A DNA stretch of 39,496 bases from Actinomycetota bacterium. Lineage in GTDB: Bacteria; Actinomycetota; Acidimicrobiia; Acidimicrobiales; Ilumatobacteraceae. Positions 37,888 through 39,398 of this stretch are shown here, piece after piece. The stretch covers positions 1-39,496 of the forward strand of contig SXKB01000333.1 of assembly GCA_005778215.1 (NCBI GenBank), given 5' to 3'. The position numbers were made by a program, and so were the translations under genes. Numbering within the stretch: position 1 is the stretch's first letter; each line of letters opens with the position of its first letter. A model generated the notes under the pieces. It was given only the letters and a program-made list of their open reading frames with translations. It did not search any database and was not told the DNA's origin.

Positions 37888-39279
37888 CTAGTCGTGCAGA
37901 CCAGCCAGGTGGCCAGCGGTGCGGCCGATCCAGCACGTCTGCTCGCTGCCCTGCCGCTCCTCCCACCAGTCGGCCACGCGGAACAACCGGTACATCGTGT
38001 GCACGCCGGTCCACCGCAACGGCTCGGGTTCCCACGACCGCGACCGGTAGTCCACCCACGGCAAGGTGGTGTGCGGGGTGTCGAGCCCGAGCGAGAGGTG
38101 CGCGAGCGAACGGGCGGCGAGGTACGCGGTGGTGACGCCGTGACCGGCATAGCCGAGCGTGTGGCCGATGCCGGTGGCGCGGTCGAACGACACCGACGTG
38201 CACCAGTCGCGGGTGACGCCCAGTACGCCGCTCCACGCGTACTCGATGCGCGTGTCGACCGACGGGAAGTAGGCACGCAGCCGGGCCGACAGCAGATCGA
38301 TGGTGGCTTGTGGAGTGTGGCCGTCGCCGCCGGTGCCCGAGCCGAAGCGATACGGGTTGCCGCGGCCGCCGATGGCGATGCGGCCGTCGGCGGTGCGCTG
38401 CGCATAGATGAACGTGTGCGCGGCGTCGCTGAGACAGTCGAGACCGGCCCAGCCGACACGCGCCCACTCTTCGTCGGTGAGCACCCGCGTCGCGACCATC
38501 GAGCTGTTCACCGGGATGATGCTGCGCTTGCCGAGCAGCGGGCCGCTGTAGCCCTCGGTGGCGAGCAGGATGTGCGGCGCCTGCACGGTGCCGCCGGCCG
38601 TGGTGACCCAGCCCGGCAGCACGCTGGTGGCGCGAGACCGTTCGTGGATGACGACGCCGCGCGCCTCGAGCACGTCGGCGAGGCCGCGCACCAGCTTCGC
38701 CGGATCGATGCGGGTGACGTCGGGGTAGTGCAGGCCACCGACGGCGCCGTGCACGTCGATGTGCGCAGCCACGCCGGCGGGGTCGAGATGCTGCACGTTG
38801 CCGGCCGGGAGACCGTGGTGCAGGTCGGCGGCGGCACGGGCACGCAGTCGCGCCAGCCCGGCCTTCGTGGTGGCCACCACCAGGTTGCCGCCGCGGTGCG
38901 CGTCGATCTGCAGCCCGTGCTGGTCGGCCACGGCCACCACTTCGGCGATGCCGTCGAGGTACTCGCGTTGCAGACGAGCCACCCCTGCCTCGCCCTCGCG
39001 GCCGGCGGCGTACCTGGCGCGGTTGCCGGCGATCAGCTGCGACAGCCATCCGCCGTTGCGGCCCGATGCACCCCACCCCACACGTTCGGCCTCCAGCACC
39101 ACCACGCGCAGGTCGGGCCGTTCGGCCGTGAGGTGGTACGCCGCCCACAGGCCGGAGAGGCCACCGCCCACGATGGCCACGTCGGCCGTGACCGCGCCGC
39201 GCAACGTGGGCCGCGCCGGCACCGCGGGCAACTGCTGCAACCAGAACGAGACGCCACCGTTCACCACTGCCGACTCCAT
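37888..39279 (-). CDS. FAD-dependent amine/amino acid oxidase-like protein (DAO family)
   Basis: 463 residues. FAD-binding Rossmann motif ADVAIVGGGLSGLWAAYHL (about 32-50) and VVVLEAERVGWGASGRNGGW, the hallmark of the PuuB/DadA-type DAO family that oxidises amines, e.g. gamma-glutamylputrescine. The C-terminal substrate domain contains GTGIGHTLGYAGHGV-type FAD contact (ATGIGHTLGYAGHGVTTAYL). Substrate unknown. ATG 39279 starts MESAVVNGG; ATG 39288 would add three residues. It reads divergently from the thioredoxin gene, 119 bp away, and its stop TAG is followed at 70 bp by the GTG of the next minus gene. Confidence 0.88.
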   Translation of the reverse strand: MESAVVNGGVSFWLQQLPAVPARPTLRGAVTADVAIVGGGLSGLWAAYHLTAERPDLRVVVLEAERVGWGASGRNGGWLSQLIAGNRARYAAGREGEAGVARLQREYLDGIAEVVAVADQHGLQIDAHRGGNLVVATTKAGLARLRARAAADLHHGLPAGNVQHLDPAGVAAHIDVHGAVGGLHYPDVTRIDPAKLVRGLADVLEARGVVIHERSRATSVLPGWVTTAGGTVQAPHILLATEGYSGPLLGKRSIIPVNSSMVATRVLTDEEWARVGWAGLDCLSDAAHTFIYAQRTADGRIAIGGRGNPYRFGSGTGGDGHTPQATIDLLSARLRAYFPSVDTRIEYAWSGVLGVTRDWCTSVSFDRATGIGHTLGYAGHGVTTAYLAARSLAHLSLGLDTPHTTLPWVDYRSRSWEPEPLRWTGVHTMYRLFRVADWWEERQGSEQTCWIGRTAGHLAGLHD

Positions 39280-39325: not shown

Positions 39326-39352
39326 GGGAATACACCCCGGGGGGTATCGGTT
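39326..39352 (+). promoter_or_regulatory. SigR/SigH-type ECF promoter before thioredoxin
   Basis: GGAAT (39327-39331), exactly 18 bp, then GTT (39350-39352), the consensus of disulfide-stress sigma factors SigR (Streptomyces) and SigH (Mycobacterium). It precedes the thioredoxin start by 46 bp, a usual position for this regulon. Confidence 0.6.
39330..39347. promoter_or_regulatory. CsoR/CstR-like operator within the promoter spacer
   Basis: ATACACCCCGGGGGGTAT is an inverted repeat (8 of 9 pairs) of the ATAC-C4...G4-GTAT type used by copper- or persulfide-sensing CsoR-family repressors. It fills the spacer between the -35 and -10 boxes. Confidence 0.5.
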
Positions 39353-39398
39353 GGACCGCACTGCAACGGCACGACGCCGATCCACGAAGGAGTTCCCC

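Follow-up and report, generated by a model that had tools for sequence, protein, structure and literature searches.

The thioredoxin gene at the end of the window, the whole stretch of 39,496 nucleotides analysed here (contig SXKB01000333.1 of an Ilumatobacteraceae assembly), is preceded by a SigR-type (ECF12) promoter whose spacer probably serves as the binding site of a CstR-type persulfide repressor, so that the gene would be controlled by a disulfide-AND-persulfide gate. The two parts of this element, their fixed register, their recurrence, the four-base centre of the operator (N4) and the classes of the downstream genes are read directly from the letters; the regulatory logic is the proposal that we draw from them. 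The earlier note had described the joining of a SigR-type promoter with a CsoR-family operator at a single thioredoxin gene; relatives show the two again.

SigR mediates the general response to thiol oxidation, and is released upon oxidation of RsrA. The consensus of SigR/SigH promoters is GGAAT-N18(19)-GTT, and such promoters drive thioredoxin genes in Streptomyces and Mycobacterium. CstR, for its part, is a sensor of persulfides. To our knowledge, it is not clear how disulfide stress and sulfane-sulfur stress, which overlap in their chemistry, are told apart by the cell; the composite promoter offers a directly testable answer to this question.

Architecture of the composite promoter

The features at the window's end are collected in Table 1. 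An exact GGAAT-N18-GTT stands before the thioredoxin gene as had been described (39327-39352), with an 18-base spacer at 39332-39349, and belongs to the SigR/SigH type expected upstream of a thiol-redox gene. The inverted repeat TACCC-N4-GGGTA, characteristic of CstR-type sites, is present in this spacer with one mismatch in its left half, and is located before a thiol-redox gene, as expected of an operator that serves persulfide or thiol-redox functions. The palindrome had been said to nearly fill the spacer, which holds, as the repeat occupies 16 of the 18 bases, but its extent of 18 bp was wrong: the original version, ATACACCCCGGGGGGTAT (39330-39347), was replaced after alignment with relatives by the 16-mer, because the outer "AT" (39330-39331) belongs to GGAAT. 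The ATG of the thioredoxin gene lies 46 bases beyond the promoter, and 98 bases of the gene fall inside the window; the partial product matches PF00085 with an E-value of 1.7e-5. Positions 32-112 of the thioredoxin ortholog model are matched at the beginning of contig C11, which belongs to the same assembly, so the gene is probably cut by the assembly only.

Table 1. Elements of the composite promoter and neighbouring genes (window coordinates)
Feature	Position	Strand	Basis or remark
-35 element GGAAT, SigR/SigH-type promoter	39327..39331 (GGGAAT from 39326)	+	sequence; recurs at operator-less thioredoxin orthologs
Putative CstR-type operator ACACCC-CGGG-GGGTAT, filling the promoter spacer	39332..39347	.	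consensus ATACCC-N4-GGGTAT, one mismatch
-10 element GTT, then G	39350..39352	+	18 bases 3' of GGAAT
Ribosome binding site GAAGGAG	39386..39392	+	by eye
Thioredoxin gene, first 32 codons, ended by contig end	39399..39496	+	PF00085
Divergent FAD-dependent oxidoreductase (DAO family) gene, outside the control element	37888..39279	-	family assignment of translation

Recurrence and downstream genes

Taken alone, the promoter motif is weak evidence. Two matches to GGAAT-N17-19-GTT were found in the window where 0.52 are expected, which is near chance, as seven of 100 shuffles hold as many; the palindrome, with up to three mismatches, is expected 0.01 times per shuffled window. The second promoter match, a GGAAT-N17-GTT at 968-992 of the minus strand, has no visible palindrome in it.

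The composite, searched with up to three mismatches, occurs in 20 of 149 genomes, its own included, against one match for the backwards control, with the reservation that these genomes are related and the occurrences are hence not independent samples. The usual form in the relatives is GGAAT-ATACCC-N4-GGGTAT-NN-GTT, in which the centre varies and the promoter elements stay in register. Exact N4 operators number 186 in the same genomes, 14 of which (a manual count over the composite matches) have a flush GGAAT and a GTT two bases on, to be compared with an expectation of 0.003 from base composition. The remaining 172 do not share this register, so the composite represents one way of deploying the operator and cannot be called the rule. 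The composite of genome G113 (L026) was taken for chance by eye, and is probably a chance hit; the same was concluded for L083 (gap of 5), L128 and L176 in the wider collection described below.

When the GTDB genome collection was scanned for exact matches to GGAATAYACCCNNNNGGGTATN{0,5}GTT, 103 stretches were obtained, including 10 from Demequina and 18 from Mycobacterium, which are therefore not independent. The gap before GTT measures 2 bases in 80 stretches, 3 in 18, 1 in two, 4 in one and 5 in two, the spacer being N18 in 80, N19 in 18 and of another length in five. Actinobacterial titles are borne by 99 of the 103; the others are Dichelobacter (L083), Seleniivibrio (L128) and two records of an "uncultured bacterium" (L160, L176). 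According to the record titles, the composite promoter is found under about twenty genus names, the carriers including Demequina, Mycobacterium, Mycolicibacter, Humibacillus, Phycicoccus, Citricoccus, Kocuria, Kineosporia, Rhodococcus and Nocardioides.

The first downstream protein was read in 100 of these stretches and classified by blastp against hand-picked members. It is a thioredoxin in 42 (Pfam also gives 42), a metallo-beta-lactamase/rhodanese protein in 23, a rhodanese in one, a CoA-disulfide-reductase-like protein in 14 and a peroxiredoxin in eight, these classes together accounting for 88 of the 100; three PIG-L proteins, two CstR and seven proteins without class complete the set. 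We take the metallo-beta-lactamase/rhodanese proteins to resemble persulfide dioxygenases in domain make-up; for the one such protein tested, NCBIfam gave no name above its cut-off. Among the seven without class are a VKOR-family protein (L158), a glutaredoxin (L163) and a YgaP-like protein (L180), as well as L117, for which a wrong frame was picked and whose site is followed, by eye, by a shortened thioredoxin start. The proteins downstream in L083, L128 and L176 are PilZ-like or unrelated. The three stretches that gave no ORF (L168, L170, L174) start, by eye, with a FAD/NAD-type oxidoreductase, a thioredoxin and an unread gene, respectively.

In-register recurrence at thioredoxin orthologs, where the composite was indeed found, and before functionally linked genes argues against chance similarity; this explanation, which can draw on the fact that GGAAT-N17-19-GTT alone arises by chance, has a negligible probability.

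Several of these loci have features of their own. In Mycobacterium sp. UM_CSW (L117), the thioredoxin frame behind the composite stops early, by eye, as if truncated. In three other Mycobacterium stretches (L108, L110, L111), the composite lies 5' of thioredoxins with a CRPC active site and not CGPC, and a CstR-type gene is close by. The PIG-L deacetylase genes preceded by the composite belong to three Acidimicrobiaceae stretches (L097, L101, L121); the PIG-L family includes mycothiol enzymes.

The promoter half and SigR

GGAAT and GTT were also considered as parts of an extended operator. This reading was rejected because both occur without the palindrome, and GGAAT-N18-GTT persists where the palindrome is absent. 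The thioredoxin ortholog group comprises 14 matches of at least 146 bits, the next match being at 113, in a search that covered 100 genomes and not the full 149. Three of these orthologs are devoid of the palindrome (G097, G122 and G128): the first two possess GGAAT-N18-GTT, and the third has two copies, one with N19 close to the gene and one with N18 further upstream. In the same three genomes, neither an exact N4 operator nor a CstR-type gene was found. The best 30 loci of this search were read, 28 of them being readable by script. The nine operator-bearing loci all display the N18 spacing, plus three other spacings. Of the 19 operator-less loci (one of which, L198, lies at a contig start and has no upstream region), nine have N18, one has N19 and one has N26 when N10 to N26 is scanned; the lack of an N18 copy at ten of the 19 speaks against our main reading.

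The sigR gene that the earlier note had proposed to look for is present in the genome, and the start of the adjoining rsrA overlaps its end. Both products score just below the NCBI curated cut-offs: SigR reaches about 248 bits (248.2 and 247.6) on TIGR02947 against a cut-off of 251.55, with an E-value of 8.5e-74, and the RsrA-like protein, which harbors an HxxxCxxC motif, reaches 59.9 bits on TIGR03988 against 62.5. No second SigR match of this genome appears among the matches listed, down to 104 bits. A SigR match of 1e-60 or better is found in 18 of the 20 composite-bearing genomes, the exceptions being G113 and G027. The latter carries two composites with a best SigR match of only 2.6e-24, which also counts against the main reading.

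The operator might be real and GGAAT/GTT not be SigR's, with another ECF sigma factor or an unseen housekeeping promoter serving the gene and CstR as its sole regulator. The two composites of G027, the small share of N4 operators in composite register (14 of 186) and the N4 operator before the genome's own metallo-beta-lactamase/rhodanese gene, which by eye has no GGAAT at the -35 register, all fit this explanation. It is nonetheless quite improbable in view of the recurrence of GGAAT-N18-GTT at operator-less thioredoxin genes, the peak of the composites at N18 and the strong SigR match in nearly all carriers.

Operator spacing separates persulfide from copper sites

Within the CsoR family, copper sensors keep a Cys-His-Cys set. 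CstR proteins keep the two cysteines, but both the His that ligates copper and the Tyr preceding the first Cys are replaced. With this sorting rule, inverted repeats of the form TACCC-Nk-GGGTA (k from 2 to 8) were sought within 400 bases upstream of CsoR-family genes. All 26 sites found upstream of the 43 copper-type genes (25 genes having a site) are N5, and all 37 sites found upstream of the 59 CstR-type genes (33 genes) are N4. The split is unchanged with homology-fetched loci only, and without the set from composite-bearing genomes it amounts to 24 of 24 N5 for the copper type and 30 of 30 N4 for CstR. Loci fetched by their repeats give a similar picture: 30 N5 loci contain 19 CsoR-family genes (18 of copper type and one truncated), and 30 N4 loci contain ten, all of CstR type. 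In the 103 composite stretches, 39 CsoR-family genes were identified, 38 of which have the CstR residues, the remaining one being truncated; the other repeats in these stretches are 52 N4, eight N5, two N3 and one N2.

At the genome scale, N4 operators are found in 53 of the 57 genomes with a CstR-type gene versus 10 of the 92 without, the operator numbers per genome and the list assigning loci to genomes having been compiled by hand. The Fisher p for this contrast is not taken as a probability. The ten are G000 (the window's own genome), G009, G020, G041, G054, G063, G065, G086, G109 and G141, among which G065 and G141 contain truncated CsoR-family matches without the His; conversely, G029, G078, G094 and G130 have CstR but no exact N4 operator. 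CstR was typed in 16 of the 20 composite-bearing genomes, all but G000, G009, G109 and G113. To note, all listed CsoR-family matches below 93 bits were fetched, seven being truncated or untypable (L314, L316, L317, L318, L320, L321 and L322). Of the 74 matches of at least 95 bits, the 33 that were read are all of copper type, the other 41 being presumed so.

This spacing agrees with published sites of Streptomyces. The sulfane-sulfur sensor ScCsoR binds ATACC-n6-GGTAT, i.e., N4 (PMC7533328), and the copper CsoR site of S. lividans is described with a 5-nt spacer as TAC-X9-GTA, i.e., N5 (PMC3902906). The N4/N5 rule is not universal: the layout of the M. tuberculosis CsoR site is different, as is that of Thermus TTHA1953, a CstR-like protein that binds TACNNTACNNNNGTANNGTA (PMC10318464).

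The earlier note had left the signal at copper or persulfide. The window operator fits N4 with one mismatch, an N5 alignment made by hand takes four, and the copper form TACCC-N5-GGGTA (TAC-X9-GTA) is hence not what the site presents. Given the N4 geometry, the CstR genes near such sites and the genes downstream, the predicted signal resolves to persulfide; copper is rejected on the basis of operator spacing and neighbour genes. For the copper sensor CsoR to bind this palindrome and place thioredoxin under copper control is very improbable, even though the sole CsoR-family gene found in the assembly is of copper type, adjoins a gene for an HMA-domain protein and has an upstream site of similar appearance (N5): N4 accounts for none of the 26 sites before copper-type csoR genes, and the 149 genomes contain a single exact N5 composite at N18, which does not precede a thioredoxin gene.

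That N5 composite, GGAATATACCC-N5-GGGTAT-N-GTT (L360, G051:C139:6465-6490), is located directly 5' of a gene for an E1-E2 (P-type) ATPase whose start is rich in His, and may be to metal what the other composite is to persulfide. It was the one exact hit of a search for the N5 composite in the N18 register with up to three mismatches, which gave matches in 12 genomes as compared to three backwards-control matches; among the rows it gave, two correspond to N4 composites that are out of register.

CsoR-family genes and N4 operators in the window's own genome

The window's own assembly (3.5 Mb, 356 contigs) is 75% complete. The CsoR-family gene that the earlier note had called for is there, but it is of copper type (Cys-His-Cys), the only family member found in this assembly, and no CstR-type gene was found in these 75%. 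An N5 site lies upstream of this csoR, and the HMA-domain protein encoded downstream is probably a copper ATPase. The family member found being a copper sensor, the cognate CstR is only inferred, and its simplest location would be the missing quarter of the assembly. The proposed search of the genome for the palindrome yielded, in addition to the thioredoxin site, five exact N4 operators. One of them is 5' of the metallo-beta-lactamase/rhodanese gene mentioned above; another has an MMPL-family gene on one side and a YgaP-like gene on the other.

CstR could alternatively have been lost in this species, leaving a promoter under SigR only with a relic, decaying palindrome, which would account for the lack of a CstR-type gene in the assembly and for the mismatch in the operator's left half. 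We regard this as unlikely considering the incompleteness of the assembly, the five exact N4 operators kept elsewhere, one of them before the metallo-beta-lactamase/rhodanese gene, and the congeners: a CstR-type gene is present in ten of 14, and in three of the other four (G001, G004 and G011) a typed CstR and an exact N4 operator are both lacking, G001 containing one truncated, untypable CsoR-family match. The fourth congener, G009, with seven N4 operators and no CsoR-family match, counts against a CstR-controlled operator.

In the MMPL/YgaP-like intergenic region (G000:C266, L004 1501-1560), two operator-like palindromes are visible in tandem, the YgaP-like product being a small membrane protein.

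Proposed mechanism and comparison with known systems

In the unstressed cell, CstR bound to the spacer would block the RNA polymerase carrying SigR, as an operator that fills the spacer should do. Oxidation of RsrA would free SigR at this promoter as it does in general, and persulfidation of CstR would free the operator. Because SigR is freed by RsrA oxidation and CstR would be freed by persulfidation, the gene should need both, and thioredoxin would be made only when the two releases coincide. Such a gate would confine this thioredoxin copy to sulfane-sulfur stress, in which thioredoxin would reduce persulfides; under plain disulfide stress it would stay off, and the operator-less SigR-type thioredoxin promoters would respond instead. 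The recurrence of the composite across actinobacteria suggests that this thioredoxin gene may be turned on only when the thiol alarm and the persulfide sensor agree.

Parts of this scheme have precedents in the literature. Persulfidated ScCsoR, which is CstR-like, leaves DNA (PMC7533328), and one operator holds two tetramers of S. lividans CsoR (PMC3902906). In S. coelicolor, overexpressed thioredoxins raise H2S release, which its authors read as sulfane sulfur reduction (PMC9952706), making thioredoxin a plausible target.

The element resembles several known systems without coinciding with any of them. It shares with the SigR/SigH thioredoxin promoters of Streptomyces and Mycobacterium a GGAAT-N18-GTT before thioredoxin and a sigR-rsrA pair in the genome, but here the spacer is a putative repressor operator, the related thioredoxin genes being plain. 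The S. coelicolor ScCsoR (SCO0620) circuit likewise relies on a CsoR-like sulfane-sulfur sensor with two conserved cysteines and the same operator type, and ScCsoR represses its own gene and the persulfide-dioxygenase and rhodanese genes; however, relative to the start of transcription of the dioxygenase gene, its two sites there are at -48 and -9, thioredoxin is outside its four-gene circuit, and SigR is not mentioned in the text (PMC7533328). The copper CsoR operators of S. lividans, bound by a protein of the same family, are also G-tract pseudopalindromes with TAC/GTA dyads, but they have a 5-nt spacer and control copper-efflux genes (PMC3902906). The M. tuberculosis CsoR site provides a case of an operator overlapping -35 and -10 promoter elements, though it belongs to a copper sensor with another operator layout in a copper-sensitive operon (PMC10318464). 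Finally, thioredoxin genes are also polysulfide-induced in S. coelicolor, where this is achieved by the activator AdpA and not by a CsoR-family repressor acting in a SigR promoter (PMC9952706).

Each part, the SigR promoter and the CstR operator, is known; their combination is new as far as found. In the open-licence literature that was searched, no paper was found that joins SigR/SigH promoters with CstR/CsoR operators or that states the N4/N5 rule. There is an even chance, in our estimate, that GGAAT-[CstR operator]-NN-GTT is a standard composite of actinobacteria defining, by an AND gate, a part of the SigR regulon that is restricted to persulfide and comprises thioredoxin, metallo-beta-lactamase/rhodanese, CoA-disulfide reductase and peroxiredoxin, and that a one-base change from N4 to N5 would re-address the promoter from persulfide to metal, as the lone N5 composite, found 5' of a P-type ATPase gene, suggests. 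At least within this order, the N4/N5 split amounts to a simple rule separating persulfide from copper operators.

A further arrangement was noticed in G137:C5 (L029/L140/L233), where the composite is located 5' of a CstR-type gene and a thioredoxin gene comes next, apparently an autoregulated cstR-trx operon.
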